Assembly: GCA_031213475.1 (NCBI GenBank)
Contig: JARUPZ010000007.1
Coordinates: 4,397,586-4,461,585, forward strand
Origin: Nereocystis luetkeana
Taxonomy: Eukaryota > Sar > Phaeophyceae > Laminariales > Laminariaceae
DNA length: 64,000 nt
Reading direction: 5' to 3'
Made by a program: the position numbers and the translations under genes. The notes below the pieces were generated by a model. The model had not been told where the DNA came from and ran no database searches. It saw nothing but the letters and a program-made list of their open reading frames with translations. Below are positions 8,871-62,035 of this stretch, piece by piece. The first letter of the stretch is position 1. Each line of letters opens with the position of its first letter.

Positions 8871-8992
8871 TTACGGGGGACCATATTAACTACCTGGTAG
8901 AGGACCTACGGTACACACAGAAACCTACCTGGTATATATTTAACCTATTTTTACTAACAATATGTGGTCCTATTGACTATGGCCCCCCTTAA
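8871..8992. mobile_element. Family A MITE copy 3, with two TACCTGGTA insertions
   Basis: Starts TTACGGGGGACCATA and ends GGCCCCCCTTAA. TACCTGGTA at 8891-8899 and at 8936-8944 interrupt the family consensus; other copies read AACCTATATATTTAACC where this one reads AACCTACCTGGTATATATT. It is flanked by TA and followed directly by a TATTAATA word. Confidence 0.8.
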
Positions 8993-9247
8993 TATTAATA
9001 GTAACACCGCTCGCTTTGTTTTTATAGCTCTCTACGAGAACGTACTGGTATTAAAATAGCTGTTTATCACAGTTGATCGTTCGCCACCAAATAATCTACT
9101 ACTGTAGTGTAACTAAAACACAGAGCACCACTTTTTATAGTTGTATTTAGTTCAGCAGTGCTTCCGACTTTGGCCCAGCTATGAAATCTGGGCCATGCGA
9201 GGTCTACACGGCCTTGATGCATACCCTGTACTACTAATAACATACTA

Positions 9248-9342
9248 ATACGGGGGACCATAGTTAATAGGACCTATGATATGCATAAAAACCTATATAT
9301 TTAACCATTTTTACTAACAATATTTGGTCCTATTAACTAAGG
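9248..9342. mobile_element. Family A MITE copy 4, right end lost
   Basis: Good match from ATACGGGGGACCATAG to GGTCCTATTAACTA, after which the terminal GGTCCCCCGTAA is missing. Confidence 0.75.
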
Positions 9343-9553
9343 TAGGTGGGTGCACCTGCAACTTTCTGTAAGGCCCCTCCCTGACTTGAAGGAACTCTAC
9401 AAATCAATGGGTGCTCGACAAAAAAGAAACGAAAAACGACCTATCTATACACTCATCTTCCCAGTGTCAAAACGAAAAACAAACCACCCTGCGCTGGGGT
9501 TCATGGACGAAAATACGAAAAGCTATTTTTTTTTTGTTTTCTCCGTATTGTTA

Positions 9554-9667
9554 TTACGGGAGACCATAGTTAATAGGGCCAATTTTTGTTGAGAAAAATT
9601 GTTAAATATATACCTGGTAGGTTTTTATCTGTACCACAGGTCCTATCAACTGTGGTCCCCCGGAGTA
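9554..9667. mobile_element. Family A MITE copy 5, with TACCTGGTA insertion
   Basis: Ends TTACGGGAGACCATAG and TGTGGTCCCCCGGAG. It carries TACCTGGTA at 9611-9619 (ATATATACCTGGTAGGTTT), where other copies read ATATATAGGTTT. Confidence 0.8.
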
Positions 9668-9769
9668 ATATTTTGCTTGGTTTAGGTAGCCCCACGCCCT
9701 TTGTCTGGGTCTCGAAAATAGGTATGGGTGGGGTGCCGTTTTTTTTTTTTTTGTGGACCCCTGGTTCTA

Positions 9770-9862
9770 CCCTTCTAGGACTACACAGTGCCGTTTTGGG
9801 GACAAAATGCTTGGAATGTGAGTGGTTTGTCCCCAAATCGGGACTGCAGTATACTAAAGGGG
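9770..9862. mobile_element. Family B MITE copy 2
   Basis: CCCTTCTAGGACT... with a central GGGGACAAAATGCTTGG and TTTGTCCCCAAATC pair, ending CTAAAGGGG. Abuts copy 3 head to tail. Confidence 0.75.
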
Positions 9863-9867
9863 TTTAA

Positions 9868-9956
9868 GCCTTTTAGGACTGCAGTCCCGTTTTGGGGACA
9901 AAGTACTTAGAATTTGGGTGGTTTGTTCCCAAAACGAAACTGCAGTCCAAACAGGG
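9868..9956. mobile_element. Family B MITE copy 3
   Basis: GCCTTTTAGGACTGCAGTCC to CTGCAGTCCAAACAGGG. Directly adjoins copy 2. Confidence 0.75.
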
Positions 9957-9962
9957 TTCAAG

Positions 9963-10176
9963 AGCGTTCTCTCGGCAGCGGTAAAAAGGGTGACTCAGTG
10001 CTAAAAGTTGACGTTCTATTTTCGGAACGGCTCTGTCCAGTCTTGCTGTCTCTCGACCAGACATATACATGGATCTTGAACAATAAAAAAAAAAAGTTCG
10101 GTAAATATATTGGCCAAAAAAACTTTCCCTGTTCTGGAAACGGAAAAATCGTGCGCTGAAAAAACGATCGCACCCC
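9963..10176. mobile_element. Family G element, diverged copy
   Basis: The right end GCGCTGAAAAAACGATCGCACC (10154-10175) matches the other two G copies. The left end (AGCGTTCTCTCGGCAGCGG) is diverged. It contains GGAAACGGAAAAATCG, comparable to CGAGGAAACGAGCG in the copy at 46.4 kb. Confidence 0.5.
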
Positions 10177-10267
10177 GTGCGCAGAGTAAACGAAAGCTCT
10201 TTTATACGGTACCATGGTACCAGGTATGTGTTATCACAAAAAAAAAATGGCTTTGAGAAAAAGTGCA

Positions 10268-10592: not shown

Positions 10593-10599
10593 AGTTGAA

Positions 10600-11875: not shown

Positions 11876-12583
11876 CTTGAAACTTCCCCTCCCAAAAATG
11901 CGCCATATGTTCTTGTTATCATACTGCTGTATTAATACTCGTAGGTTATTTTTTTTTCGTGGCCCTATTATGCTGTGTGATGCCAAAAAACAACCCTCTT
12001 TTTTTTGTACGTATTGCTTGCCATACGAGCCCTTAATGAATATTGCCTGTGCGATGCTGCGCGTTGCGGCCTGGAACGGTTGCGCTACCACCCCCCTCGC
12101 CCATCTTGCTCAATGGAACAACAACAAAATCAACGCGCGTTTGGTATTAACCTATTTGTGTACCTGGTGTACCACAAGCTGCTGCCGCCACCTAGAAGGT
12201 GCTTTGGGCTTTGGTCTGCCTGTTATTTCCCCTTTGTTATTTTTCCTTGTTACTTTCTCCTTGGTTCTTTGTCTTACTCTGTTCACAAGCAGTGGTGTCT
12301 TTTGTTATTTCTTCTTTTTTCCAGCTCGTTCTTTTTCAAGTGTAGGCCACCTCGCCTGCGGGGGGGGGGGCACGACAGATTGTTTCTCTTAGATTTTGCT
12401 TTCATTTTTCTTCTTTTTCTTTTTCGACTTGTCTACCTTGTTTTGTTTTCTCTTTGATTGTTTCTTTTCGTTTCACTATTTCATAGATTGCGTATGTCGT
12501 GCCTGTCGTATCTAGTATGATGACATGGCTTTGCATTGCCCACTGCAGTTCACACTGCACACGTGGCAACGTAGTATCTCTGT

Positions 12584-12724: not shown

Positions 12725-12979
12725 AAGCATTATTAGCACAAAATAAGTAATATGATGTTATACCGCTGTATCGCTACGATTGGCAATCGACCAGAAACAT
12801 GAATTCAAATTTACTAGTAGCTCGAAGACCGAGGGATCAAACGGTTACCTTTTGACACACTCGTACCCCCCCCCCCCCCCCCTGCCGATCGAGAATCCAC
12901 ATTCGCGGCGATTTTTCTTGATGTGCCACACCACACACTTTCAGTACGAGGTACAGTATAGTAAGTATTAATAGTGTCC

Positions 12980-13968: not shown

Positions 13969-14322
13969 GAGACGGGATCAATCAGTAAGTCGGCCATCAG
14001 CAGTCAGTCAGTCAGTGTTGTCGCCCTTACTCTTACTATTAATATACAATCACTTTTTTCGTTGCACGGCGCAATACTCACCACCTTTTGCATAGGCAGC
14101 CCTCGACCCTATCCTGTTCGTTTTTCGGCGGGTATAACCCTCTTTCTCGGGTGCTGGTATTAATAGTGGTATACGCATTCCAAGACCATCCGGTCTAAGG
14201 CCATAGCAGAGATAACACCAGGTGCATCGGCTAGTAACGAGAAAACTACTTGGAATTAGGACGTATAGTTTTTTTTCCGGCAGTAAAAGACACCTCAAGA
14301 CCATAGTATTATAATACTACTA

Positions 14323-14427: not shown

Positions 14428-15285
14428 AATAGTGGAGACAAAAACATGTTTTTGGGCTTGTCAATGGGTAGTTCTGCATTGTTATGATATGACGAACATT
14501 AATCATCTAGAGCTGCTTTTAGCAGAGGGATTATTGCATTACCAGGTACGTACGAATATTATTATTTTGTTTGGCATCCACCAATCAAAATGTCCGCGTG
14601 TGTCAATCGCAAAAAATGACGAACAAACCGAAAATGAAGGCGCGAAAATGAACGACATGTATGTACCAGACCGATTTAACGCACACAAAGTCTCCTACCG
14701 ATGTAAATGAACCCAAACGTCTCTTCATCTCATCCGTCAAACAGCAACTAACTGGGCTCCCCCCCTCTAAGTTACTGCTGTTTACACCGGCTGGTTCTGG
14801 TTCATACCCCACAACATGCGACATTTATTTCGCATCATGCGCATTCGAATCCATAATTCAGAGCAGTATTTTTGTTCCATTCGTGAGTACTGGTATGTGG
14901 GCGTAACATATTCATACTATTAATACTATAATCATAATGCCATCTGGTACGATATGATATGAGACATATGTTGTCTTTCACACATACATGCATATATATG
15001 TACATACCTGATCTACAGAAGCAGTACATTGTATTCTAGTACTTATATATTTGCTCGATGCGAGAAGAACAGTAGTATGACACTCTGTTCGTCAGTATTA
15101 TTTTAGTTGGTTCGGTTGGCAAAAGGTTTCGAAGAGACAGAGACACAGGGATGTTTGCTGCAAAAACCGCATTTACATACGCGATATATGCTTACACTCT
15201 TACACAATCACGTACCAGGTATCATACAGCAGCAGCAGTAGTGCATATACACTATACAAACAGCAGCACAGCCAGTAGTATACTA
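14428..15285. other. Intergenic, no gene seen
   Basis: AT-rich, with TACCAGGTA near 14540 and 15211, TATTAATA near 14912 and short TACGTA palindromes. Open frames here lack any recognisable domain. Confidence 0.4.
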
Positions 15286-17606: not shown

Positions 17607-17965
17607 CCTATAAATGATGATGCTCCTCGTGTCATACTGACATAGGCCTCCCATTTCCTTGCCTGCATTCATCTCGTACGTAGTGGTTGCTGGCGTCCCC
17701 ATCCTTTTACTCTCCTTGCGCCAACCCCCGACAGCACAGCAGTAGCCAGAAGCAGACTCTTGTCGTAGTGCAGTAGTGGTACGTACTGGTGCTGGGACTG
17801 CAGTAATGTGGTTAAGATATGATCGTGTCGATGCGATCGTTGGATCGTTGTGGTGGTGGTGTATCACCACCAATAATATTACTTTTGCCACCCGATAGTG
17901 ATGTCCCAGTCTGACTGCAATCGAGAACCCTCTATTAATAGTACAGGCAGTACCGCAGTAGTACT

Positions 17966-48600: not shown

Positions 48601-51600
48601 TCCGTCCGCCCACCCACTCCTGCATCGCCCCCATCTATCGCTGGCATCGCCCGCATCTTCGTATCCGCAGCTGGAGCTGGAGGAGCGGACGTCTGTCGCC
48701 CGGGTCCGCCCCCACCGTGAGCGCAACGAGGATGGGGGCGAGGCAAACGGTGGTGGTGGCGGCGGTGGCGGCGGCGGGCGTGGACGCAACAGGGGTCGCC
48801 GCGGAGGCGGTGGCGGCGGCGACGGGGAGTACGGCGGAGGCGGTGGCGAGAACGGGGAGGAGGGGGGCGAGGGGCGGGGACGCCGCGTGCCTCCCGTAGC
48901 GGAGCACTCTGTGTACATCAAGGGCTTCCCTGACACTACCACGGAGGATGACATCCGCGCCGAGGTGATTAGACGAGAAAAAATGTTGGGATGTGGAGGG
49001 TTGCTGGCCTCTTTATTCGAGAAAATGGTTGACACACACTGTATTCGAGACGAATAGAACTACAATAAGTCTCAACTATAAGCCAATCAGAGCAACCCTA
49101 ACCCTGACTCTAAGCCAATCATACCACATCTCGAACAAGCGGCAAGGTCTACTTGTGATGGTGTACGAAGAAAGGGAATCGTTTCATGCTTGTGCAGGTT
49201 AAAGACTACCGTAGCTCTACAGGTTAGGGTTCAGGGGATGAACAAATGGATTAGGTATATGATAATGTTGAGAACATTCGGCAAAGGGAGCTCGTTTCAT
49301 GCGTGAGTGCTCGGCAGAAACTCTTCTCGCTATATTTTCAAGGAGATCGAGCCAAATGTGAAAACAAAGGAGCACATGAAAGAGAGGAAGGACCGTTGTA
49401 CTTGTGAAGTATGTTCCTCCGGTATAAAAGTTGCTTTTACGGGGGACCATAGTAAATAGGACCTATGGTATACATAAAAACCTCTATATTCAACCATTTT
49501 TACTAACGAAATTTGGTCCTATTAACTATGGTCCCCCGTAATAGCTTTTAGGGGAATGAGCTAATGCGAGAAACGTCGTGATTCATTATCGAGACGGTGT
49601 ACTTAGTTGTGTAAATCATGTGGTGTGTGAAAGAGGGGCCAGCGGGCCAGGGCTTTGACAGACGAACACGGTAAGAAAGTGTTTCTGGGGTTTAGTTGAG
49701 AGTGTTTCGTTCAATCGTTGAGATGAGAATGTTTCGTTCACGTTGGTTGTTTTTTGTTGTTCGTGTTGGGAGGTGGATGGAGATCGGGGGTGATCGCGTT
49801 AGAAACAAACACAAGCCACTAACGTAGTTTTTCGGGTTTCCGTCGAGTGTGTATGGGTTCTGTTCGTTGTTTTTGTTGTTGTTTGCGGTGTGGGGAGGTG
49901 GATGGAGATTGAAAATACCAGGCAATATATACGTGCAAGCTACGGACAAATTTAAAAACAGTAGAATATCTGTTTGCCGGGGCATCATGCGTTTTTTTTT
50001 TTAATTGTCGGGCCGGGATAAGGTGAGAAAAGTTGCGCGCGGTCGGTTGACGGTGTGGCCAGAGAGAAGAGGTGGGGAAAAAAGGAGGGAAACTGTCGGA
50101 GCATTACGTGAGGTGCGTGTGCGTACGTACGTGGGCGATATCTTGGTTGGATAATTCTAGTTTCAGGTTCGTGAGATCGGAATAGATTGGATTACGTGCC
50201 CTTTTCATTTGTTCTTTGGGGTAGAGAGTTTCCTGATTTTAATGATCCGTTTGATATGCAAGATCTGTCGTGCTTTTGCAGGGTGGGATCTGTATGACAC
50301 AGCTCTTGTCCGCGCGCGCATGTGAGCAATGCCGCCTTAGAGGGGTGGTGGCTTATTTTCTAAGCTACCCCTCTCATGAAGAGCTCAATACCTCACCCGA
50401 AACATGACTTGGAAGATGTGGGTTCGCACAACCTGACCAACCACTGTATGCGCTATGAAGTAACCCTTTTAGAACTGCAGTCCTGTTTGGGGACGAACCG
50501 CTCAAGTTGTAAGTAGTTTGTCACCTAAAGGGGACTGCGTTCCTGAAAGGGGTAATATTAATAGTACCCCAAGACAACAATACCAATGAGAGTGTCATAC
50601 TACCTGATAAAATAATAACCGGTCAGAACAAGCGACAAAGTGCAACCGGTGCCGTCGGATGATGCATTTGTGCGCCGCCGGGTGGGATGGATCTGTATGA
50701 TTCAGCTCTCGCCCAACATCTCAACAGCCGCCGCGAACACAGGTTGTACTCGTACGTGCAATATAGATGATCTGGATACGTGATGTATCCGATTTGTGGA
50801 TGGTTTAGTTTTGGCCGAGATGAGAAGACGGTTGTTTTTCGCAAGTGTACGCTGTGAATAGTATGCCCTCTTCGTCTACACTGCTGTAAATGCACAGAAG
50901 GGAGGGAGGGAGGGGGGACGTTTCTCGGTGTCGTGACCGGGTTAACTGTTTCGTCCTGTGTCTTACGCCGTTTTGCCTGTCTACCTGTTTTTTTTCTCCT
51001 TGTTTTTCAATGAAGAACCTCGTTTTTTTTCTGTTTTTCTGTCCGGTTCATATACGTTGGGGTTGATCGGCTGTTGGCTGGTATTTGGGATTCTGTCCCG
51101 GCCCGTTGTTGCTGTCGGATCCCAATTAATAAAACTGCCGCAACTTTCATCGTCAATCTTTTGTCATATTTTTGTCGAAACCGCCCACCCTATTATAGGC
51201 TGTACGTCTTCCTCGCCTACACGCCGAGGTTTTTCGCCGGCGTGAACCCCGCTCTTCCTCTCTTTTGTTTCTCGCGTTCCTGGATTATTTCGTTCATCTG
51301 TTTTTCGTTTTTTGTTTTTTTTTTCTTCATTTCTCCCCCTTGTTGTGATCGTTGCCGTTTGCTTGCTTGTCTTGTCGCCATGTACACGATGCCTTTTTTT
51401 TTCGTTTCGGCAGTTCTCCCAGTACGGCGACATCGTGTCGGTGATCCTTCGCGTGAAGCATATCGGGGAGGACATCCGCACCTGGGCGTTTGTAGAGTAC
51501 GGCTCTACGGAGATGGTGGACCCCGCCATCGCCGGCAGCGAGAGCCTGATGCTCGGAGGAGTGCCCTGCACCGTGGAGGCTAGGAAGAGCACGCCTACCC

Positions 51601-52635
51601 CGAGGTGATGAACCCCATATATATTTTTTTGGTCTCCCTTCTCTTTTTTTTCGATCACTTTTTTCTCTTGTTTTTTTTTCAACACTTTTTGTCCGATTTT
51701 AGAGGGAAGGCGCACGTTGCTTGCACCAGTGCGGGGGAGGCGGGGTGGGAATAAGTCAGAGTCGGGGCGGTTCTGGGGTGTCTAAGGTTTCTGTATATTT
51801 CGGGTAGGCGGGGGGCTGTACTCGATAGGAGAGATGTACTCGATCTCATGCATGGCCGCAGTCGGGGAGGCGGGGGGGGGGGGGGGGGAGGGGGTATAGA
51901 TAGTGTGTCGTGTTTTTTCTTCCTGTTGCCTTCGTTCGGCTTGTTCTTCTTCTACTAAAGGAGAGACAACGGGGCTGCTGGTTTCGGGCGTTTGCTGCAT
52001 GGGCACGGCTGATGGGAAGACCGCGCAGTCCCCCTATTACGGGGGACCATAGTTAACAGGACCTATGGTATAGACAAAAACCTATATATGTACTTATTTT
52101 ACTAACAATATTTGGTGCTATTTACTATGGATCCCCGTAACAGGAGGAGTGGATGGGGGGGGGGGGGGGGGGGGGCAACCCGCGCGCAGAGCTGAACTCA
52201 TACAAAGCTACAGGAGAATTATCTGTGTGGAGGTACACACCAACAACGGTGGTCTGCTCTCGCGTGAGAGACTGCGCAGTTTTCTTTTCTGCAACGCGCG
52301 TTCAGCCAATACTGGAACCCAGCAGCCCCGTCTCACTTCTCCCTCCCTAGTATATTAATAGTTGTCGTTGCTTGGCGTTGTCTTTGCCAGTGGCGTTTGT
52401 TTTTTTTTCTCCTTTTTCGTCTTCTTTTTCTCGGTGGCTCTTGTCCTTTCGTCGTTGTTGCTCCTTGTTCTCGTGTTGTTGTTCATCTTGTGCTTCTGTC
52501 GTTGTTGGTCGTGTGTCGGCGGTGTGCAGGAGCGAGTACGGCGGAGGAGGACGCGGCCGGCGCTTCGGCGGAAGGCGTCCCCGGGGCGACAACAGGGGAG
52601 ACAACAGGGCTGACCGCAAGCGCGAGAGCTACTAG
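19473..52635 (+). CDS. Three-RRM, Gly/Arg-rich RNA-binding protein (whole gene, seven exons)
   Basis: The joined exons 19473-19640, 20428-20543, 42130-42210, 44218-44332, 48671-48964, 51414-51604 and 52530-52635 total 1,071 bases, which is 356 residues plus stop. Phases match at all six junctions. RRM1 (about residues 8-78) has RNP2 IYIKGV and RNP1 KDFCFVEF. RRM2 (about 95-172) has SIYIPTLP and RYAFVEFG. A Gly/Arg/Glu-rich linker spans about 178-232. RRM3 (about 239-316) has SVYIKGF and TWAFVEYG. The RGG-like tail (322-356) ends KRESY. The domain order resembles nucleolin-like and G3BP-like RNA-binding proteins, so binding of RNA in nucleus or granules is a reasonable inference; the specific target is unknown. 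Introns measure 787, 21586, 2007, 4338, 2449 and 925 bp and are full of transposons. The ATG at 19473 has a favourable context (ACCATGG) and follows a CAG-rich leader. Confidence 0.9.
20428..20543 (+). CDS. RRM gene exon 2
   Basis: Acceptor CTCTTAG, donor GTACGT. Residues 57-94 plus two bases: the rest of RRM1 (GGFEVCGAHATVEMRKPR) and a basic linker RRGRRERATVPEGTST. Split codon AG|C gives Ser95. Confidence 0.88.
21814..22600 (+). repeat. Left TIR of the MULE with ~200-bp sub-repeats
   Basis: Four diverged tandem units start at GTCGTAAATTC (21836), GTCGTGAATGAC (about 22072), GTCGTTTTTTATGACACC (about 22260) and GTCGTAAACAAGCC (about 22447). Units share GAAGCTATCGCATAG-like, CAAAGCGGGCCAGTACTCGAG and GTTGGCATGG blocks. 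Units 1 and 2 (to about 22260) match the right TIR; units 3 and 4 have no partner there. Repeated subunits may have been multiple transposase binding sites (inference). Confidence 0.75.
23062..23892. mobile_element. Non-autonomous PIF/Harbinger-type element nested in the MULE
   Basis: Perfect 18-bp TIRs GGGCCCATCTTAACGGGG (23062-23079) and its complement (23875-23892), flanked by the 3-bp direct repeat TAA (23059-23061 and 23893-23895). A TAA/TTA 3-bp duplication with GGG ends is typical of PIF/Harbinger. The 831-bp interior is GC-rich in the middle (about 23230-23690) and AT-rich at both sides. Open frames there (115 and 114 codons, opposite strands) show no transposase motif. The middle may be captured host sequence. 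Confidence 0.75.
24304..24807 (-). pseudogene. Charged C-terminal region of the MULE transposase (probable)
   Basis: An open frame of 167 codons rich in Lys, Arg, Asp and Ser, with segments such as LSLDEARDIQEKAEDY, LKKKRGRERAE and RRSRLMKKDPREKPLDDR. It lies just downstream, on the same strand, of the SWIM-like block, where MULE-type proteins carry a basic low-conservation tail. The first half is the more protein-like. It could instead be an independent ORF of the element. There is no intact join to the SWIM frame. Confidence 0.45.
24941..25258 (-). pseudogene. MULE transposase fragment with SWIM zinc finger
   Basis: CSRLQLSRRGLPCRHYFAVL (residues 37-56 of this frame, coding positions 25091-25150) matches the SWIM pattern CxC-xn-CxH as found in MULE and FAR1 proteins, where CSC...G(L/I)PCRH is usual. 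The second cysteine of the CxC pair is Arg here (TGC to CGC would explain it), so zinc binding is probably lost. Neighbouring frames are disrupted. Confidence 0.65.
26213..26494 (-). pseudogene. MULE transposase fragment, RAE motif region
   Basis: In the frame running 26391-26293 the translation is LGMLSTPRAEAMFGVTKNMS followed by LEKKNIPVRSLGKS. The pattern (T/S)xRAExxxxxxK, between the DDE domain and the SWIM finger, is a hallmark of MULE/FAR1-type proteins. The continuation SLNASTRCFI is in the neighbouring frame, so there is a frameshift near 26290. I could not recover the DDE catalytic residues upstream. Confidence 0.55.
27100..27189. mobile_element. Family B MITE copy 8, perfect TTAA target
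   Basis: CCCCTTTAGAACCGCAGTCC ... GGACTGCGGTTCTAAAAGGG with TTAA on both sides (27096-27099, 27190-27193). The best evidence in the window for a piggyBac-type target. Nested in the MULE. Confidence 0.9.
27258..27827 (+). other. Ser/Glu/Lys-rich open frame inside the MULE
   Basis: 189 codons. The start resembles a short Cys/His-bearing segment (CKICVGQQNLHMADNQRC) and the rest is low-complexity, with STEDSSEK, STEDNSEKSSSAEGSSTEEK and similar repeats. The DNA is a purine-rich imperfect tandem repeat with a unit of roughly 15-18 bp (27480-27960), so the open frame may be a by-product. If real, it could be a captured host exon or an accessory MULE ORF. Confidence 0.25.
28139..28246. mobile_element. 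Family A MITE copy 10
   Basis: TA-TTCCGGGGGACCGTAG ... ACTGTGGTCCCCCGTTA-TA. Nested in the MULE. Confidence 0.85.
28738..29174 (-). repeat. Right TIR of the MULE
   Basis: Reverse complement of left-TIR units 1 and 2, with about 437 bp of homology. Shared blocks include GAGGAGATAT, TGGCATGGTGCGGGGCCATC and ATTCTTATTTGCGACACCGC. It lacks a TTAATA insertion present in the left copy at 22133-22140. Confidence 0.75.
29540..29644. mobile_element. Family A MITE copy 11
   Basis: TA-TTACGGGGGACCATAG ... ACTAGGGTCCCCCGTAA-TA, near-consensus. Confidence 0.88.
29645..30508. other. Intron 2 segment, nothing recognised
   Basis: Contains TACCAGGTA (29745) and an AAACTGGTTTTAACTTCTG region. An open frame near 29911-30144 shows no domain or splice support. 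Confidence 0.35.
30513..30601. mobile_element. Family B MITE copy 9, TCAA target
   Basis: CCCTTTTAGGACTGCAGTCC ... GGACTGCAGTTCTAAAAAGG flanked by TCAA on both sides (30509-30512, 30602-30605), a one-base variant of TTAA. Confidence 0.88.
30606..32088. other. Intron 2 segment, no exon supported
   Basis: Holds TATTAATA near 31320 and a compound TACCAGGTATTAATAGATACCTGGTA region near 31637-31662. A 114-codon + frame at 31366-31710 has no recognisable domain and crosses these insertion words, so I do not call it a gene. Confidence 0.4.
32089..32176 (+). mobile_element. Family D, 3' end with poly-C tail
   Basis: GCTCCGTCTCGAAAGGGATG, GTGGTCAATGGTCAAATGAC, AAGGCAAGCAACAAATGAGTACG and a C run. 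A family C element starts directly after the tail. Confidence 0.75.
32184..32684 (+). mobile_element. Family C poly-C element, near full length
   Basis: Begins CATAGGGTGGCGTCGGTTGG and ends GATATCGAGTACCCCCCTCC. It contains ATTAATA (32481-32487), where other copies read TTCTTAGTAGG without it, and it joins a family B MITE at its 3' end. Confidence 0.75.
32699..32787. mobile_element. Family B MITE copy 10
   Basis: TTAA-CCCTTTTAGAACCGCAG ... CTGCGGTTCTAAAAGGG-TCAA. Nearly perfect palindrome. Confidence 0.88.
33837..33910. mobile_element. Family B MITE copy 11, right end decayed
   Basis: CCCCTTTTAGGACTGCAGTCC ... AACGGGGCTGCGGTCCTCCC. The right terminal CTAAAAGGG is lost. Confidence 0.75.
34277..34420. 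mobile_element. Family F element, copy 1
   Basis: Shares the core CGTGTGCGGAGTAGTGCCGG and TGGTTGGCTGGC-GTACCGGCACTA with the copies at 38351 and 48044. The ends are decayed. Confidence 0.55.
34955..35049. mobile_element. Family B MITE copy 12, with TATTAATA insertion
   Basis: TTAA-CCCTTTTAGTACTGCAG ... CGGGACTGCAGTAC, then TATTAATA (35035-35042), where other copies have the TA of CTAAAAGGG. Confidence 0.8.
35380..35490 (+). mobile_element. tRNA-like head plus A tail (SINE candidate)
   Basis: A T-arm-like hairpin CTGGG-TTCGAGC-CCCAG contains the polymerase III B box GGTTCGAGCC (35433-35442). About 40 bp upstream, AGTTCAAGTGGTTAA resembles an A box / D-arm. The acceptor stem is not recoverable and the anticodon arm is irregular, so it is not a functional tRNA. 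A short body and a run of 17-18 A follow. The layout fits a tRNA-derived SINE, but there is only one copy here. Confidence 0.4.
35944..36048. mobile_element. Family A MITE copy 12
   Basis: TTACGGGGGACCGTAGTTAA ... TTAACTATGGCCCCCCGTAA-TA, followed directly by TTAATAG. Confidence 0.85.
36061..36240. repeat. Short direct repeat with TACCWGGTA triplet
   Basis: CTTGAAAATGGAGTGGGATACATGCTT (36066-36092) recurs diverged near 36193-36217. Between the copies three TACCWGGTA words occur within 32 bp (36098-36129). Confidence 0.5.
36350..36434 (+). mobile_element. Family D, 3' end with poly-C tail
   Basis: GTGCTCCGTCTCGAAAGCGAG ... AAGGCAAGCAACAAACGAGTACG and a C run. Same truncation type as the copy at 32089. 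Confidence 0.7.
36435..38350. other. Intron 2 segment, nothing recognised
   Basis: Contains TACCAGGTA (37377), TATTAATA (37558) and a poly-G run at 38033. Open frames lack domain or splice support. Confidence 0.35.
38351..38523. mobile_element. Family F element, copy 2 (best preserved)
   Basis: Ends GTCCCTCTATAGTGCCGG and, reverse-complemented from the right, GGTCCCTCTGGGGTGCCCG. Core contains CTACTCCGCACACG. About 173 bp, no coding potential. Confidence 0.6.
39233..39424 (+). mobile_element. Family C, 5'-truncated with poly-C tail
   Basis: From CTCTAAAGCGGTTCTTAGTAGG to GATATTGAGTACACC and a C run. Confidence 0.75.
39620..39667. repeat. (AGT)n microsatellite
   Basis: About 16 uninterrupted AGT triplets. 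The flanking open frames owe their Val or Leu runs to it. Confidence 0.9.
40235..40322. mobile_element. Family B MITE copy 13
   Basis: CCCTTCAGTACTGCAGTCC ... GGGACTACAGTCCTAAAAGGG-TTGA. Confidence 0.8.
40447..40640 (-). mobile_element. Family D copy with longer 5' part
   Basis: Colinear with 58510-58710: GTACTCATTT..., ATCGACCACGCATCCCTTTCG, GGAGCAC, then a block homologous to the coding fragment at 58.6 kb. It lacks the TACCAGGTA found in that copy. Confidence 0.6.
40650..40830 (-). mobile_element. Composite family C/D fragment
   Basis: On the - strand, a D segment (CGTCTCGAAAGGGATCCGTG ... GCAACACGTGAGTACG) runs straight into a C-type end (CATGCAGTACATCGAG) and a C run. D-to-C joining suggests template switching or nested insertion. 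Confidence 0.5.
42130..42210 (+). CDS. RRM gene exon 3
   Basis: Acceptor CCCACAG, donor GTGAGC. One base completing Ser95, residues 96-121 and two bases: RRM2 beta1 (IYIPTLP) and helix 1 (KEAVRSLFSGL). Split codon CG|G gives Arg122. Confidence 0.85.
43223..43432 (+). mobile_element. Family C, 5'-truncated with poly-C tail
   Basis: From CCGTTCTTAGTAGGATGCAG to CATGACATGAGTACC and a C run. Confidence 0.75.
43755..43850. repeat. Family E repeat, copy 3 (inverted, diverged)
   Basis: ATGGTGTGTGTTTGTCC..., CGTTCTTTGTACCCGTCGATATG, CAGTGTTTCGTGCTGATTCTT match the reverse complement of 12584-12724. No CA/GT tract expansion here. Confidence 0.6.
44218..44332 (+). CDS. RRM gene exon 4
   Basis: Acceptor TGTGTAG, donor GTGAGC. 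Completes Arg122 and encodes residues 123-160: RRM2 RNP1 SRYAFVEFG and the second helix (CQHVQEIMSSGPFTL). Ends in phase 0. Confidence 0.9.
45909..45991. mobile_element. Family B MITE copy 14, ends decayed
   Basis: GTAGAACCGCAGTTCCG ... CAAACGGGACTGCGGTTCTAAA. The terminal CCCTTT/AAAGGG is lost. Confidence 0.75.
46413..46643. mobile_element. Family G element with internal duplication
   Basis: Left end GGGGTGCGATGGCCTTTCATCGC, right end (reverse complement) GGGGTGCGATCG-TTTTTCAGCGC. A TTCCGAAAATGTACTGGYGGACTT block occurs twice inside. Confidence 0.6.
46759..46854. mobile_element. Family A MITE copy 13, right end lost
   Basis: TTACGGGGGACCATAGTAAA ... GGTCCTATTAACTACGGG, then diverges. Confidence 0.75.
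46939..47045. mobile_element. Family A MITE copy 14
   Basis: TA-TTACGGGGTACCATAG ... CTCTGGTCCCCCGTAA-TA. A second TTACTATTAATAG follows. Confidence 0.85.
47208..47285. mobile_element. Family B MITE copy 15, shortened
   Basis: TTAA-CCCTTCCATGACCGCAG ... GTTGGACTGGGG-TTAA. The right arm is deleted but the TTAA flanks remain. Confidence 0.7.
47883..47994. mobile_element. Family A MITE copy 15
   Basis: TA-TTACGGTGGACCATAG ... TACTATGGTCCCCCGTAA-TA. The centre reads AAATACCTGATCTATAGG where others read AAATATATAGG, a longer TA-flanked insertion. Confidence 0.85.
48044..48156. mobile_element. Family F element, copy 3
   Basis: CTATAGTGCCGGTATGTGCC ... ATTCCGCACACGGCC ... GCATTACAGAGGGACCCC. Shorter than the copy at 38351. 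Confidence 0.55.
48671..48964 (+). CDS. RRM gene exon 5
   Basis: Acceptor ATCCGCAG, donor GTGATT, phase 0 at both ends. Residues 161-258: last RRM2 strand (LELEERTSVARVRP), a linker with a run of ten Gly, RGRNRGRRG and Glu/Gly repeats, then RRM3 beta1 and the start of helix 1 (SVYIKGFPDTTTEDDIRAE). The opposite-strand Pro/Ser frame is a shadow. Confidence 0.9.
49437..49541. mobile_element. Family A MITE copy 16
   Basis: TTACGGGGGACCATAGTAAA ... TTAACTATGGTCCCCCGTAA-TA. Confidence 0.87.
50464..50552. mobile_element. Family B MITE copy 16
   Basis: TAA-CCCTTTTAGAACTGCAG ... GGACTGCGTTCCTGAAAGGGG-TAA, followed by TATTAATA. Confidence 0.78.
51414..51604 (+). CDS. RRM gene exon 6
   Basis: Acceptor TTTCGGCAG, donor GTGATG. 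Residues 259-321 plus two bases: rest of RRM3 helix 1 (FSQYGDIVSV), RNP1 TWAFVEYGS and last strand (LGGVPCTVEARKS). Without splicing the frame stops at 51606-51608; with it, AG|G gives Arg322 and the RGG tail follows. Confidence 0.88.
51816..51853 (-). mobile_element. Family C, extreme 3' end only
   Basis: About 38 bp (CATGCATGAGATCGAGTACA ... TATCGAGTACA) followed by a short C-rich end. Strong 5' truncation. Confidence 0.55.
52037..52140. mobile_element. Family A MITE copy 17
   Basis: TA-TTACGGGGGACCATAG ... TACTATGGATCCCCGTAA. Within intron 6. Confidence 0.85.
52530..52635 (+). CDS. RRM gene exon 7 (last)
   Basis: Acceptor GTGTGCAG. Completes Arg322 and encodes 34 residues: SEYGGGGRGRRFGGRRPRG, DNRGDNRADRKRESY and TAG at 52633-52635. 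RGG-type tail, typical of proteins that bind RNA loosely and can be methylated on Arg. Confidence 0.88.
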
Positions 52636-55086
52636 CGCGACCGACCGAGCGTCAACAGCGACCGACCGGCGGACGGGACGGCTGCGGACGGTTTTTGCCG
52701 CCCGCTATCTCTGCCCGACGGCAATATAATAATGTGGTTTGTTTTGGGCAGTGTTGAAAAGGGGGGGGGGGGGGCGTCTCTAGTTGTCTGAACTCGTTGT
52801 AGTTCTAAAGTGCTTAGTAGTAGAAGTATTACGCGAAGGGTTTTATATGGTGAAGGCGAGCGGCCGGCGGAAGGCCGGGGCCAGAGCAGTATCAGGAGAA
52901 ATCGGAAGGACGGGAAAAGATGGGCGGAGATTCGGAGGGGGGGGGGGGGAGTGTCCCTGGTCGAGGAATGTGCGCGACACGACCGAGCGTGAAAACCTCG
53001 GTGGTGTGCAGTTTTTCGTGATTCGGGTGACGGTGCCGAGCAAGTGATGCTTGGAAACGGGTGAGAATGGGGGGGGGGGGGAGCCGTGGCAAATGCTAGC
53101 GTTGACTAGCGTTATATGTATGTCCGGAAACGTGAGATATGGACATGTCCAGGGTGCATAAGATTTGGCGCCGATATGTGCTAATTCTGTTTTTTGTTTT
53201 TTCGTTTTTGTTTTTCCGCGTGGGAAAATACGTACTTCGTATTGTTTTTGGGTGCCGGTGTACGCGTTTGCCTGGAGGGAGGGCGGGGGGAACGGGGTAG
53301 GGGCGGGGCAATAGTGGATGGAGTAGTCTGATACTGGGCTAGCCGGTAGAGAGGCAGGAGGGGTGGTCGAGAGGAGGGAGGAGGGGAGGTGGGAGAGGGC
53401 TGGAGAGCGTCGTGTGCCTTGACGTTCGGGCTGGCATGCTCAAGAAAGTGGGGTTTGCAAGAGGGAAGGGAGGATGAGGTATGCGCTAGCTGGGATAGAT
53501 TGGTCGTAGGGTGCAGGGGGGGTTGGTGGGTGGGTGGGTGCAAAAAATCACGTGCAGGAAGGATGAGGGATAAACTGGAAGCTAGCGTAACAAATATTTT
53601 GAGACAGAAAAAATGCGGGACACGTTGTTGGTGTTTTTGTTTTTCGCTTTGTTTGTTGATGGTGGCGGTTGGGACGCATGGCGTTGACAAGAGAGGAGGG
53701 GGAATGAGAGCGGGGAGGAGGAGGGGGGTTGGAACATCTCGAGGGAAAGAGAAGTGCGGGAAAGGCGCTCGGTCGCGGCACCACGAGAGACCACGAGTGA
53801 CTCCATGTAGGAATCTCGGTGTCGACAATTAATTGCGGCGCAATTTTTTGCGGTTGGGTTGTGCGCCGTCCTCATGTCTTCTTTTTTTTTTAGTCGTTGT
53901 CAGTGCGTGCAAACCGGCCCCCGATGCAGAGCGTGTGTGTTTATTTTTATTTTTATTTTCGGTCGTCTTTTTGTGAAGGCTGATTCCTTACTTTCCGTCG
54001 TGATTGACTTGGAATAGGCGTTTCTCGATGGGAACACGGGGGAAGCGGGGGGTCCGTCTAAAAATGCGTGGACTGCCCGCGTGCGGGCGGGGGGGAGAGA
54101 GAGGGGCAACCAAAAAGAAGTTCGGTTTGTGTTGCTGCATCTTGTTTTCTTTCGACGGCGCCACATGTTATGTGAGGGCGTGTTGTGGTTGTGCTAGGAT
54201 GTTTTGAGTAGTAGGCAGTGAGATTGGGAACAGAAAAGGGGGGAGAAGGGAACGGGAAGAAGAAAAAAAGAAAGAAGAGGAGGGAAAAAGGAGCGCAGAA
54301 GGAATATAGCTCTTTATACGTGTTTTTTTGTTTTCGTCGTGCATCTTGCGTACGTACATGCGTACGTATATATGTACGTGCTTTCTTCTTTGTGGTTTTT
54401 GAGCCGCGAAACCGCCGCATGGTTTCCGCCTTGGGCCGGAATAAAACAAGGCGTTTTTTATCTCATTTTCTCGGGTAGGTGGGTGGGGTGGAAAACATCT
54501 ATTAATACGACAAAAGGGCGTTGGTTTGCTGTTGTTTCCTTTCGGGGCGAAAGATTAGTAATTATACTATGGACTACGTACGTACTGCGATTTTTTTTGT
54601 TCATGATCGGTTGGTTTGACATGAACGAGGGACGTACTGAGAGAAAGACATTTCGTGCCCGCATTTTTTACTACCTGTCTTTTGTTACCACACTTTTTTT
54701 CTTTTTTTCTTTTGTCAAAAATGATTGTTACGGTTGTGCGATTTGCTTTATTTTTTTTTCAGCTCACGAGCTGCTTCAAAGGTAAAAGACGGAAATTCTC
54801 TCCCCAACGAATGCCGCCAGCAGCATCTACGTATTCGAATCGAATTGGACATATTTGGTATCACCCTGACCGCCATAAACAGCGGAAGAGGGTGACATGG
54901 CCGTTTTGTTATTCGAGGTTCTACGCCTGGCGCTACTAGCGGTGAAAATGTGTCCCGACCAACCACACGGGCCCTTCGACATGGTCACCGCTACCGGTAG
55001 GCGTTTATTTCCATACGTACGAACACAATTATACAAGATAGATTGCGAAAAATCGATGCTGTACTTGAACTTAAGTAGTTACCAGT
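52636..55086. other. 3' flank of the RRM gene, no gene recognised
   Basis: Contains the unplaced 3' UTR, several G runs (52759, 52936, 53070) and TG- or GGGA-rich DNA. Open frames on both strands are low-complexity and have no domain. TATTAATA occurs near 54500. Confidence 0.4.
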
Positions 55087-56005: not shown

Positions 56006-57502
56006 GCCCTGGTAATTACGAGGCATCGCCTACTTTAGGCACTTTTTCCACACAAAAGGTCCACGCCGCTTTTTAGAGATAGACCGTGAAACGTTGCGCA
56101 CGTGTTGTTTATTTTCTTCCCGGGGACCGACTTTCTTTTTTTTTGGGGGGGGGGGGTTCTTCTCTTTCGCCGAAACTATTTAATATAAAAGGTGGTCCAA
56201 ATTTTGGCGAAAAAAGTTGAAAAAAAAAAAAAAAAAAAAAGCCTTGACGAAAAATAACGTCAGGTCAGGTGTGCACGGAGCGACTCATAGACGACGTGTG
56301 CAAAAAAATGTCTGGGACAAAACGGCATGGTCTTTGGCCGGTGACTAATTTTCCGTCGTTCAACTTGCACTATCACGGGGGGCCATAGTTAATAGGACCT
56401 ATGGTACACATAAAAACCTATATATGTATCCATTTTTACGAACACCATTTGGTCCTATTAACTATGGTCCCCCGTAATAGGCTGTATCCTTTAAAAATTT
56501 TTCGGCTGGATGCTTCGAGCAATATCCCGAAACAAAGAGTACTTGATAGGTATGTACGAGAAACAAAAAAGAATGTATGCGTCTTTCAATGCTCACACAC
56601 ACGTATAATATACGTACGTGCAACCTATTAATAGCTGACAACGAATTGCTGTGCGAAAAGCGAATGGTGCCATGCAGGCGCCGGTATTGCTGCTAAACGA
56701 AGACCACAGGTAAATTCAATGACCCCCCGTCCTCCCCACCGCGCCCTGAAAGATGATGTGAGCATGATGATACCCCACTATAAGCCCCACGGGCGCGGAC
56801 CGCAAAGTTTTGAATTGAGTCTTTCTGTTCCACTGACTTGGAAAAAAGTCCCCAATTATTGCTCTAACCACCGCTACTACTACTGTGTGTGTGGTCGTAA
56901 TACGCCATTCAATTCTATCGCCATCACTATACTGTATACAGCGGTACGGTACCGGTAGTTCCGTATCGCTTTGAGAACGTTGACGAGGAGTGGGTATAGG
57001 GTGAACAAGAGTTTGCCAAGAAGAGAGGAAGGCGGAGATAGGAAGGGAAAATGAGGTATTATCTGTTGGTTCAAAGTGATAGAAGAACTGCCACTTCGGG
57101 AATAGAAGATACCACTGCAGGTAAGTAGAATAAGAGACCTTGTCTTTTTTATAAGCGCGTCAAGGCCTCTTTCGGGCTAAATATATATATATACATACCA
57201 ATTTTAGTGTTGGAGCGGTCAGACAACGGATGAAACCGCGGTCTCTAGAAGCGATTGTCTACGAGCGATTGCCCCGGGTGGGGCCGAGTCCCCTATTATA
57301 GCTCAAGGCGCTGGGGTCCGTTGAATCCGAAAGTTGGATCAGACTGCTAGTCGTGTGTGTCGGCAAAACCTGGTCCCAAACCCGTAGAGTAACAGCTCGA
57401 AAGCACGTAATACACCAGGTACAACACTGTCGAGGGTGCCTTTCCACTTGTTCGACATCATCATTGAGGGTCACCGTGTACGAGACGAATGTCCTGATAG
57501 CT
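56006..57502. other. Intergenic
   Basis: One family A MITE (56373-56477), G and A homopolymers near 56145 and 56220, TATTAATA near 56628 and CACCAGGTA near 57414. No exon recognised. Confidence 0.4.
56373..56477. mobile_element. Family A MITE copy 18
   Basis: TA-TCACGGGGGGCCATAG ... AACTATGGTCCCCCGTAA-TA. Confidence 0.85.
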
Positions 57503-58500: not shown

Positions 58501-58501
58501 G

Positions 58502-58855: not shown

Positions 58856-59108
58856 ACAACGCACGGCATACTTTCACCATCATCGACTGATGTATTGTAC
58901 ACGGCAGCGTGACCCTTCGACACCTATCGCGCATTAAACAAAGCAGAAAAAGAAAAACAATATTTCCACACAGCGTGGTCAGTCACCGACACGAACAAGA
59001 CGCAAACGGCACCCGGGTAAAAAGGGTCAAGCCCCTAAAAAAAACGCCACCCATCATGTGAACATCGATGTGTGGCATGATAGGGGCCTCTGGCGAGGTC
59101 GAGCAAGA

Positions 59109-59178
59109 GTGAGCCTCTAACCCTCAACCTCTGCCGCCTTGATAACGGGGTGGTCGACGTTGAGGGTTAGAGGTTCAC
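59109..59178. repeat. 20-bp inverted repeat spanning a stop codon
   Basis: GTGAGCCTCTAACCCTCAAC (59109-59128) and GTTGAGGGTTAGAGGTTCAC (59159-59178) pair with one mismatch across a 30-base loop. The right arm contains the stop codon and last codons of the - strand gene ending at 59167. Confidence 0.8.
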
Positions 59179-59259
59179 GGCAACCCTGGTGACGCGCCGG
59201 AAGGAGCTGGAAAGCCGTTGCAGAATCTCTTCGGCATCTTCGACCGCCCTGGCTGCACG
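59167..59259 (-). CDS. Exon 2 of the membrane-protein gene
   Basis: 30 codons plus TAA. Preceded by a T-rich tract and GCGACAG. Strongly protein-like and GC-rich at third positions. The stop lies in the right arm of an inverted repeat. Confidence 0.55.
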   Translation of the reverse strand, partial: RAARAVEDAEEILQRLSSSFRRVTRVAVNL

Positions 59260-62035
59260 CTGTCGCGAGAAAAAAAAAACGACCGAGGGAAAAGTGGAAG
59301 AATGTCGTGACAGTCTGGACTTTGGCGGATCGGAATCAACTTTACAGAAAAACGGGGTAGGGGGCGGGGGGGGGGTGGGGGTGGAACCAGTATAGGGAGA
59401 TACCTGCCTAGGGGGTCACAGCAGCAGCACACAGCTACACGTATATACTGGGCAGGCATACGCAGCGTCGGGTACAGCAGCGGCCGTCGGTAGGAGCATA
59501 GGGGAGTAGGGATACAGCAAGTGGCGACATCGATCGCAATCTCTCACCCACCCACCCGATTGCGTCACGATCAGGGAGGTTAAAGGGGAGGGAGGGGGGG
59601 AGAGGGAATTTTGGCTGTTGAGGTTGCCTATCAGAGCGGGGGGCAGGTCAGCCGCGTACATCTGCTAGAATGGGAGACGGGGAAAGGGGGGGGGGCAGGG
59701 GGAAATGGAGGAGGGAAACCCGTCCCGTCGCAGCTTCAGTCACCTCCCCCGTGGGCGACACGGGAAACTACTGTACTATTCACGCATTTTCCGTGACGAG
59801 TAGACCAAACGTCACGTGTTTCAGCTGGTGGTACCGCCAGGTGCGATGCTGAACGCGCTCGGCAGATAGGCGGGTGCTCCATTCCGTCTCTACACAGCAG
59901 CCGGCGGCAGGACTGACTGTAGATTAAAATCGCGCAGACGACACAACAGTTTTATTACGGCGGCGGCGGCGGCGGCGGCGGGGGGGGGGGTGGGGGAGGG
60001 TGTACTCAATATCATGCATGGCCGTAGTCATATGACCATAGCCCGACGCCTACAATGCCGGGACGGTGCACGTCGGGTTTCCACCAACAAGGCAGACATT
60101 GGGGGGGGGGGGGGGGGGGTACTCGATAGGAGAAATATACTCGGTCTCATGCATGGCCGTAGTTGTATGTATGACCATAGACCCTCGCATCCCTAGAATG
60201 GCGGGACGGAGCATGTATGTCGGGTTTTCACCGACCAGGCAGACATTGCTTGCACCAAGCGCGAAGCGCCGTGAGGTGTCCGGCGAGTCGCATGAAGGGT
60301 GAGCTGCATCCTACTAAGAACCGCTTTTGAGGCGGACTTGCATACGGATGGCAGCTTCAATGATTTATTTAATTTCCGGTGTAGCCACTTCCAGAGACAG
60401 CAATGGGAGTACTATGTAACTGCCTCGTGGGTGGCTTACCATGAGCACTACGTGATACGATCAATTCCCTTGTGCGGAATAGAGGTTATTTATCTCGCAC
60501 AAATGATCTAACTCGACGACCACCTATGAGAGACCGCCAAAAAAAAGAAAGAAAAACGGTACCCTGGTTGTCTAGTTCACGTAGTGAGCGGCACGTTTTA
60601 CAGCGTCGTTTGCCAACCGACGCCAACCCAACCTATATAATAGGGGGGGGGGGGGATGCATGGCCGTAGTCGTATGACCATAGACCCTCGCCTACAATGC
60701 CGGGACGGAGCCGGTCGGGTTTTCGTCGATCAGGCAGACATTGGGGGGGGGGGGGGGGAAGTGTACTCAATATCTAGGGGGGGAGTAGTAATTTGAACCA
60801 CACGAGGGACCCAAACAACTTGGTGTACCCCCCTACCCCCCTCAGGTTCAAGACAACATACTTCGTTCTGATTACTATGTTCTCCGCGGTAATAGTGTTC
60901 ATATTACGGGGGACCATAGTAAATAGAACCAATTATTGTCAGCAAAAATTGGGAAATATGTGTTTTTTATGTGTACCGTAGGTCCTATTTACTACGGTCC
61001 CTCGTAATAGTATAAAGCAAGGCACCGTTTTTTGCCCTGACATATACGTTCATCCTTCTCTTGAGATACCACCCTACCGCAGGAAACCACCCTCGGTGAT
61101 GAAAAACATCTCATCAAGATACAAACAAGGTCAAATTTATCACCGGGGTTCTTGAGATATCACCCCCTGTGGTTAGAAGCCCTACAGTCACAGGGTGGGG
61201 GGGGGGTGTACTCGATAGGAGAGATACACTCGATCTCATGCATGGCCGTAGTCGTGTGTATGACCACAGACCCTCGCATCCCTAGAATGCTGGGACGGAG
61301 AATGTATGTCGGGTTTTCACCGACCAGGCAGACATTGCTTGCACCAAGCGCGAAGCGCCGTGAGGTGTCCGGCGAGTCGCATGAAGGGCGAGCTGCATCC
61401 TATTAATAGTAAGGATCGCTTGCGACGCGGACATGCTTATTGATGGCAGCTTCAATGAGTAGATTTAATTTCCGGTGTAGCTACGTCCAGAGACAGCAAT
61501 GGGAGTACTATGGAACTGCCTGGGTGCCTTACCATGAACACTACGTGATGCGATTATTCTCCTTGTGCGGAGTAAAGGTTCTTCACCTCGCACAAATGAT
61601 CTAACTCGACCACCAGCTGTAACCGACCGCCGAAAAATATAAAAAGCGGTACCCTGTCACTGGGGTGGGGGGGGTGGGGGCGTACTCATCTGTTGGTTGG
61701 CCTAGTGAAATGAACGCGAGCCACAAAATCCGTACGCGCCCACTGTGGCTGTAGGGCTTTTACCCAATTCGGACAACTTTACCACCCGGGGTCCACACAA
61801 ACAAATTACCCGAGGCGGTTTCTTAGGCCAAAATACGACAAAAAGCGCGGTCGGGTCTCTCGCACTTCTCGAAAAAAAGCCCAGAACTCACATATCCTGT
61901 GTAGACGCCCACAGCCGCGCACACCAGCACGAGGGGCAGGATGAATGCCAACTTGGTGGGGTCGGCAGAGCCGCAGTGGCAGTCACCGTTCGGAAACTCG
62001 TCTGCAGCCGGAAACAGATCGCGCAAACGGGGCAT
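59167..62035 (-). CDS. Probable two-exon gene, 78-residue single-pass membrane protein
   Basis: Exon 1 is 62035-61892 and exon 2 is 59259-59167. Joined in phase 0 they give 78 residues. The N-terminal part has acidic and Cys-containing MPRLRDLFPAADEFPNGDC, then a hydrophobic span of about 19 residues (KLAFILPLVLVCAAVGVYTGY). The C-terminal part, from exon 2, is an amphipathic helix-like tail (RAARAVEDAEEILQRLSSS, FRRVTRVAVNL). Donor is GTGAGT, acceptor GCGACAG. The 2.6-kb intron is filled with family C copies and a family A MITE. I do not recognise a family. Additional exons in the intron cannot be excluded, and exon 2 might belong to another gene. Confidence 0.5.
60000..60101 (-). mobile_element. 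Family C, 5'-truncated copy
   Basis: AATGTCTGCCTTGTTGGTGG ... GCATGATATTGAGTACACC and a C-rich run. The 5' end meets the poly-C tail of the next element at 60103. Confidence 0.65.
60103..60638 (-). mobile_element. Family C poly-C element, near full length
   Basis: On the - strand from ATAGGTTGGGTTGGCGTCGG to TATCGAGTACC and a C run of about 17. A complete example for defining the family. Confidence 0.78.
60653..60768 (-). mobile_element. Family C fragment(s) with G/C runs
   Basis: AATGTCTGCCTGATCGACG ... CTACGGCCATGCAT and a C run, with another GTACACTT/C-run end at 60745-60775. Two short truncated copies may be joined here. Confidence 0.55.
60904..61007. mobile_element. Family A MITE copy 19
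   Basis: TA-TTACGGGGGACCATAG ... TACTACGGTCCCTCGTAA-TA. Within the intron of the membrane-protein gene. Confidence 0.85.
61195..61660 (-). mobile_element. Family C poly-C element
   Basis: From a GGGTACCGCTTTTTATATT-like start on the - strand to TATCGAGTACACC and a C run. Contains TATTAATA at 61401-61408, where copies at 58.3 and 60.3 kb have CTACTAAGAACC without it. Confidence 0.75.
61668..61710 (-). mobile_element. Family D, extreme 3' end
   Basis: CTAGGCCAACCAACAGATGAGTACGCCCC followed by C-rich sequence. Short truncated copy. Confidence 0.5.
61892..62035 (-). CDS. Exon 1 of the membrane-protein gene
   Basis: 48 codons from ATG at 62035 to GGATAT before donor GTGAGT. Encodes the acidic N-terminus and the hydrophobic span ending VYTGY. 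The frame is open further to 61823, but the donor and the loss of protein-like character favour splicing. Confidence 0.6.

Follow-up and report, generated by a model that had tools for sequence, protein, structure and literature searches.

A prevailing 8-base word in the genome of Nereocystis luetkeana as the probable excision footprint of a resident TA-flanked MITE

The 64,000-nucleotide stretch of the kelp Nereocystis luetkeana considered here (assembly GCA_031213475.1, contig JARUPZ010000007.1, positions 4,397,586 to 4,461,585; hereafter the window) contains the 8-base palindrome TATTAATA 24 times by exact match, first at 8993 and last at 61408, and the question that it raises is whether this word is the scar left when family A, a miniature inverted-repeat transposable element (MITE) resident in the same DNA, is cut out. 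A finished genome gives little sign of transposon excision where the repaired site is variable or perfectly restored. Should a single MITE leave behind one predominant 8-base scar, excision could be counted against retention site by site, and sequence alone would suffice to measure MITE turnover, the outcome of end joining and the age of activity in a brown alga, with a ready set of testable sites for comparisons between individuals. We consider it very likely that excision of family A left TATTAATA as its footprint; the link is strong but indirect. An earlier note on the window had proposed this origin, and its core claim is supported by the genome-wide excess of the word, by its behavior as an insertion between paralogues, by a target preference common to word and element, and by the finding of scars and elements at the same TAs of two other repeats, families B and C.

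The abundance of the word is well beyond expectation at every scale. The 24 copies in the window, put at about 23 against about one expected in the earlier note, compare with 0.84 under a first-order and 0.48 under a second-order Markov model (Poisson P of about 1e-26 for 24 given 0.84 expected, a value that ignores the fact that part of the sites sit in repeats), and the word ranks first among all 256 8-base palindromes in the window, followed by ACTGCAGT (18 copies), GTACGTAC (15 copies) and ATATATAT (13 copies). On two other contigs, 200 kb contained 53 copies against 0.91 expected, the top ratio of any 8-mer with 15 or more occurrences, with an uneven distribution between the two 100-kb blocks (10 versus 43). 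Across the whole genome (465 Mb) there are 93,112 copies, compared with 10,689 for the backward-read control, which is likewise an AT palindrome. The excess over the second-order Markov model is 49- to 58-fold in the sampled DNA; the next ratios in the 200 kb are about 11-fold for TATATATA/ATATATAT and 10.9-fold for TAATATTA (10 copies). Unrelated AT-rich 8-mer palindromes, whose equal enrichment the earlier note had named as an observation that would tell against its reading, are not enriched to that degree.

Family A has the properties of a MITE: it is short, with terminal inverted repeats, uniform length and a high copy number, and is too short to encode a transposase. In the non-redundant sample, pairing of the end TTACGGGGGACCATAGT with its reverse complement gave 48 copies, 23 of which are exactly 105 bp long (the pairing, the target profile, the survey of words after TACTA and the true-scar estimates given below leave aside seven overlapping sampled loci). 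The consensus, from which the copies diverge by a median of 17%, is 104 to 105 bp long and nearly palindromic, with 27-bp perfect terminal repeats and the ends TTACGGGGG...CCCCCGTAA. The duplicated TA target that marks Tc1/mariner elements is present: TA stands on both sides of 38 of the 48 copies, and where an occupied site could be compared with a sister lacking the element (14 rows, representing four distinct sites), the sister has a single TA at three of the four sites, the sisters of the fourth reading CG or CA. The statement in the earlier note that family A is flanked by TA therefore holds for most copies but not for all, as nine have TA on one side and one on neither. Genome-wide, the 17-base family A end has 64,137 matches with at most one mismatch (control, 1) and, because only 22 of the 35 family A ends found in the window with at most three mismatches are that close to the consensus (manual count), the family may comprise very roughly 50,000 copies. 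Two better-known assignments were considered and rejected. The terminal sequence of Stowaway elements is CTCCCTCCGTT, and the family A consensus ends in TTACGGGGG. piggyBac elements duplicate a TTAA target, which is restored upon excision, and footprints are described as rare; family A is flanked by TA, and the sisters of the four distinct occupied sites have no TTAA at the junction.

A TAC(TA)GTA target preference is common to family A and TATTAATA and is absent from TACCWGGTA, TACATA, and TAAATA. The last three bases outside the TA read T, A and C at 56, 58 and 57% of family A ends (n = 111) and at 55, 59 and 53% of TATTAATA flanks. Flanks ending in TAC account for 23% of the same family A ends, 16% of TATTAATA flanks and 2.3% of all TAs, with values of 2.4% for TACCWGGTA, 2.5% for TACATA/TATGTA and 2.0% for TAAATA/TATTTA, and intermediate values for TATTATA/TATAATA (4.8%) and TACWGTA (9.6%). 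Following subtraction of the all-TA background, the flank profiles of family A and TATTAATA are correlated with an r of 0.96; random sampling of TA flanks (2,000 draws) gave 0.69 at best, TAATATTA reached 0.36 and TATATATA gave -0.31. Because CTA-rich repeats could counterfeit such a signature, the comparison was repeated without the CTA-rich stretches L005 and L009, in which 14 of the 102 sampled TATTAATA sites fall, and the 88 scars used again gave an r of 0.96; restriction to CTA-poor surroundings (74 scars and 85 family A ends) gave 0.92, with TAC at 13 and 19%, respectively. Among the 14 words listed per length after TACTA, the family A end and TTAATA stand out once simple repeats, family A interiors and rare words, among them AGAACCGC and TGTAACTG from family C itself, are set aside, and no other TA-flanked terminal-repeat family with the TAC-TA-GTA signature was seen in the 350 to 370 kb sampled.

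The same TAs are found scarred or occupied in copies of families B and C and, in family C, also empty. For family C, the empty site GCTGCATCCTACTAAGAAYCG has 3,922 exact matches in the genome, 158 sites are scarred (GCTGCATCC plus zero to three bases and then TATTAATA) and 54 are occupied (the family A end TATTACGGG at the same site), the backward controls for the latter two being 0; only the scar and element counts are roughly comparable, because the three search patterns differ in length. Counted by hand, 43 of 100 listed scars lie at the first TA of the site, 56 at the second, 1 is one base off and none is in the remaining register, and the 54 elements are distributed as 18, 35, 1 and 0, so that the two splits agree (Fisher P of 0.30). 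For family B, CTGCNGTNC is followed by TATTAATA 285 times (controls, 0 and 1) and by TATTACGGG 112 times (control, 0). Scars thus outnumber family A residents at both repeat sites measured, at 158:54 and 285:112. The element counts are too low, because the exact TATTACGGG survives in only 66 of the 107 family A ends sampled; correction of the elements, with no matching correction for mutated scars, brings the ratios to about 1.8:1 for family C and 1.6:1 for family B. The possibility raised in the earlier note, that excision is as frequent as retention, is correct in order of magnitude. All three states occur within one repeat, which is occupied at L003:427, scarred at position 34517 of the C2 sample (where the left flank aligns less well) and empty at position 36125 of the C1 sample. 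As the sites are paralogues, they show that the same targets were used, not that one locus changed state.

Comparison of paralogues also presents TTAATA as an insertion at a TA. Self-alignment of all sampled loci except L001, overlapping loci included, yielded 1,002 insertion sites of 3 to 20 bp; alignments above 99.3% identity were skipped, as were, in a stricter comparison of sisters, pairs with both flanks identical. Of the 92 six-base insertions, 20 fit the pattern TA-X-TA, and TATTAATA makes up 11 of the 20. The listing of TATTAATA insertions holds 12 rows, which on manual reading represent about seven independent sites, double reports having been dropped and the occurrences at C2 40312, C2 61174, L015 and L020 treated as one inherited scar. 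Other classes in the survey were TACCWGGTA, the main 7-bp class (15 rows), and, among 4-bp insertions, TACATA/TATGTA (10 rows) and TATATA (15 rows). The sites in the window are as follows.

8871..8992, family A copy, its right TA being the first TA of the next scar
8993..9000, TATTAATA adjoining the family A right end
11930..11937, TATTAATA, presumed scar
12966..12973, TATTAATA, presumed scar
14037..14044, TATTAATA, presumed scar
14158..14165, TATTAATA, presumed scar
14918..14925, TATTAATA, presumed scar
17933..17940, TATTAATA, presumed scar in the context CTATTAATAGTAC
21771..21778, TATTAATA, presumed scar
22133..22140, TATTAATA in the left arm of an element that the earlier note calls a Mutator-like element (MULE), the other arm reading CACTACCATG
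26899..26906, TATTAATA, presumed scar
29540..29644, typical complete family A copy of 105 bp with TA on both sides
31320..31327, TATTAATA, presumed scar
31643..31650, TATTAATA with a TA in common with TACCWGGTA at 31636, another TACCWGGTA following at 31653
32481..32487, degenerate scar CATTAATAG in a family C copy, at the second TA of CTACTAAG
32823..32830, TATTAATA, presumed scar
35035..35042, TATTAATA in a family B copy, the opposite arm reading GTAC-TA-AAAGGG
35944..36048, family A copy, its right TA being the first TA of the next scar
36049..36056, TATTAATA adjoining the family A right end
37558..37565, TATTAATA, presumed scar
40360..40367, TATTAATA, presumed scar
45753..45760, TATTAATA, presumed scar
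47052..47059, TATTAATA, 6 bases past a family A right end (47045)
50556..50563, TATTAATA at the edge of a family B copy
52353..52360, TATTAATA, presumed scar
54500..54507, TATTAATA, presumed scar
56626..56633, TATTAATA, presumed scar
61401..61408, TATTAATA in a family C copy, TTAATA being absent from five of the six sisters listed

Four of these sites had been offered in the earlier note as insertions relative to paralogues. Two are clear: at 61401 the sixth sister is the copy at 32481, and a laxer listing adds two more sisters without TTAATA, while the scar at 35035 has no counterpart in the other arm of its palindromic family B copy (GCAGTAC-TA-AAAGGG). The third, at 22133, is consistent with insertion, CACTA[TTAATA]CGATG being set against CACTACCATG with a left match of only 19 bases. 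The fourth, at 32481, is not an exact TATTAATA but the degenerate CATTAATAG; it lies at the second TA of CTACTAAG, the first TA of which is hit at 61401. A TA shared between TATTAATA and a neighboring family A copy was observed in 3 of 51 family A rows (window 8993 and 36049; L003 2520), as if a scar had been reused as a target or one of two neighboring copies had left. The window also carries, at 1114 to 2231, long arrays of the 5-base unit CCCGA/TCGGG in inverted orientation.

The product of excision appears to be mostly +6, with TTAA between the TAs. Judged by the AC target flank, about 90 of 101 TATTAATA sites are estimated to be true scars, compared with about 2 of 83 for TATTATA/TATAATA and 0 of 226 for TATTTA/TAAATA; the estimates for one-base variants are 18 of 31 for TTGA/TCAA and 8 of 14 for TTAG/CTAA. 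These variants (31 versus 14) might mirror variant family A ends, and mutation of old scars explains them equally well. The partial footprints TATTATA and TATAATA, whose enrichment the earlier note had proposed as a check, do show a mild excess over the Markov expectation (83 versus 32), as do TATTTA/TAAATA (222 versus 138), but their flanks carry little or no target signature, and we do not regard them as family A scars. By these estimates the kelp scar is not of the single-overhang kind (+4 or +5) left by Tc1 or Sleeping Beauty, although 4- and 5-bp insertions, counted with their letters unread, make up 9 and 9 per 100 listed for family C and 14 and 13 per 100 for family B. In family C, 172 copies have 1 to 25 extra bases at the second TA, and 100 listed insertions include 47 of 6 bp, 10 of 3 bp, 9 of 4 bp and 9 of 5 bp.

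Several observations weigh against family A as the source. Of the 43 six-base family C insertions that could be compared with the scar listing, TATTAATA accounts for only 22; the remaining 21 may be scars altered by mutation or additional CTA units. The family B site, where lengths were measured genome-wide between ACTGCNGTNC and TAAAAGGGTT at the right end, has no 6-bp peak, 100 listed insertions including 30 of 9 bp, 14 of 4 bp, 13 of 5 bp and 9 of 6 bp; five of the nine six-base places lie on contigs covered by the scar listing and three of the five are TATTAATA, and we suspect that the 9-bp class reflects subfamily differences at that end. None of the 14 rows that pair an occupied family A site with a sister has a scar in the sister, and no pair of alleles or orthologues with family A in one and a scar in the other was seen, the sole orthologous stretch found (L003, 3.7 kb at 99% identity) being one continuous match in which the genome is 9 bases longer. 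In 26 ten-kilobase bins, the density of scars is uncorrelated with that of family A ends (rho of 0.25; P of 0.22) and correlates instead with TACCWGGTA (0.48) and TA content (0.44). TACCWGGTA itself behaves like a second excision scar: as TA-CCWGG-TA it occurs 161 times against 3.5 expected in 333 kb, its middle base is A or T at 164 of 172 sites, and it is found at 39 places in the window (for example, 8926, 9611, 31636, and 36111) and at L033 1521 and 1591, as well as inserted inside family A copies, with no TAC target preference. No resident element beginning with CCWGG was seen in the sampled DNA, and it thus looks as though abundant scars without visible parents exist. Further scar types may be marked by GTACGTAC (15 in the window against about 1 to 1.5 expected) and by TACWGTA insertions, with their weaker TAC preference (9.6%).

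It is on account of the lack of an allelic or orthologous pair, the lack of a density correlation and the orphan status of TACCWGGTA that we hold the origin from family A to be very likely rather than certain and allow a small probability to an unseen element with the same target. Such an element, now rare, would have ends TTAA...TTAA and would be mobilized by a related transposase; its self-complementary 4-nucleotide overhang would always rejoin as TTAA, so that the observed letters are the expected outcome, and both the precedent of TACCWGGTA and the uncorrelated densities are in its favor. A terminal-repeat scan of 370 kb (16-mers with at most three mismatches, 50 to 900 bp apart) found no TTAA-starting family beyond presumed scar pairs, however, and the best 8 of 806 TATTAA pairs lying at most 8 kb apart were family A interiors, AT-rich sequence or scar pairs (in the pair inspected at C2 7477-7585, the right end consists of scars). 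The words listed after TACTA likewise leave, beyond simple repeats and family A interiors, only the family A end and the scar, together with rare words such as AGAACCGC and TGTAACTG. Very unlikely is the reverse order of events, in which TTAATA is added at a TA first and family A, with true ends ACGGGGG...CCCCCGT and no duplication, then enters the middle of TATTAATA: the common flanks and the outer TATT/AATA, which are the same in both, would be explained, but some unknown agent would have had to make the TTAATA addition on tens of thousands of occasions, the TAs on both sides of 38 of 48 family A copies resemble an ordinary target duplication, and at three of the four distinct occupied sites a sister shows a single TA without TTAATA. 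That TATTAATA is a compositional or functional word, arising by AT-rich chance, as a microsatellite or as a protein-binding palindrome without transposition, has hardly any credibility, since, despite the 14 of 102 sites in CTA-rich L005 and L009 and the 11-fold excess of TATATATA/ATATATAT, it would have to accommodate a 49- to 58-fold excess, a flank profile that persists without those stretches (r of 0.96) and in CTA-poor surroundings (0.92), and the presence and absence of TTAATA between paralogues.

Returning to excision of family A, the events may be envisaged as follows. The element would insert at a TA, with a preference for TAC-TA-GTA, and duplicate it; a transposase supplied in trans would cut it out; and end joining would leave both TAs with two bases from each family A end, TA-TT-AA-TA. 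If made by family A itself, as we infer, TATTAATA, a 6-bp insertion at a TA, would show the Tc1/mariner hallmark of TA, a few terminal bases, and TA; because the TA is duplicated and the scar is small, we also infer that the cutting was the work of a Tc1/mariner-type enzyme. Three-nucleotide 3' overhangs, as reported for Sleeping Beauty and mariner, would read TTA on both sides, and as their terminal TA is self-complementary, they could pair offset by one base, with one base filled in on each strand, to give TTAA; we rate this route at even chances. The same letters would result from a 2-nucleotide overhang filled in across the break or from blunt cutting two bases within the element, and our data do not separate the overhang, fill-in and blunt-cut routes. 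We suggest only tentatively, and with some doubt, that the terminal TTA programs its own repair, the overhangs joining in one register and leaving a TATTAATA whose two TAs are available for renewed insertion. Were this so, each excision of family A would leave a uniform, countable scar together with a fresh target, and the kelp genome would be a near-complete tally of the insertions and excisions of one MITE family.

Family A was also encountered in public stretches of bacterial metagenome-assembled genomes (MAGs), three with the exact 17-base end, those in L001 and L057 lying at the start of a contig; the loci concerned are L001 1-120, L002, L003 1-3700, L057 and L062. The contig g3_MAG_00016, labeled 'Flavimaricola', matches the kelp genome over 3.7 kb at 99%. 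A study of MAGs from bull kelp uses the same contig-naming scheme, reports that its tissue assemblies contain DNA of the kelp host and names Flavimaricola, Phycisphaera, and Saprospiraceae (PMC9238374). The MAG contigs with family A probably hold kelp DNA, which looks like host contamination or misassembly through a high-copy-number repeat. L003 also carries, at 1016 to 2231, a repeat of about 1.2 kb with many genomic copies at 75 to 85% identity. In matches to the L003 repeat, the small contigs C1186, C1309, and C1459 score as C20 does, and C384 scores as C3 does, which looks like haplotig duplication.

How does this scar compare with those of known systems? Text searches of the literature for TATTAATA with footprint gave a single match, concerning a bacterial regulator, and a search for brown algae with transposon, MITE, Tc1, mariner or genome terms gave none; among the few titles inspected from a broader search on Nereocystis luetkeana, none dealt with such a scar, and our statement on the literature is confined to these searches. 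The Submariner MITEs of Pandoravirus salinus (30 copies) resemble family A in being TA flanked with a paralogous empty site, but excision and footprints do not appear in the main text searched (PMC4495683). The assertion in the earlier note that TA-TT-AA-TA is exactly the product of a Tc1/Tc3-type excision was too strong, as the published scars of Tc1 and Sleeping Beauty are shorter. Tc1 of Caenorhabditis elegans is likewise a cut-and-paste element with a typical small insertion scar, but that scar is +4 in 78% of somatic cases (PMC13148408), compared with +6 here. Sleeping Beauty, from which the stagger in our overhang proposal is borrowed, also targets TA, and its 3-nucleotide 3' overhangs are end joined to leave a scar of one 3-nucleotide overhang (PMC7827188), whereas both ends appear to contribute two bases in the kelp. 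Zero to three bases are left by ZB, in a report that quotes 2 to 4 bp for Tc1/mariner elements (PMC7913693), and one to four bases by Osmar5 and by the bamboo element Ppmar2 upon excision in yeast (PMC9632168); Ppmar2 shares the TA target and the bases left between TAs, but its footprints are diverse and those described here are mostly TTAA. The closest printed product that we found is the Stowaway footprint TACT...AGTA of the Triticeae, which has the two-plus-two layout, although Stowaway footprints read at one intron vary, with two to four bases from one end and one to two from the other; reinsertion at a scarred TA has also been described for Stowaway (PMC1925063). Stowaway and Osmar5 thus resemble family A in the short palindromic MITE, the TA duplication and a scar composed of terminal-repeat pieces from both ends, and the kelp family differs in its ends, TTACGGGGG, and in the prevalence of one product, which can be counted genome-wide.

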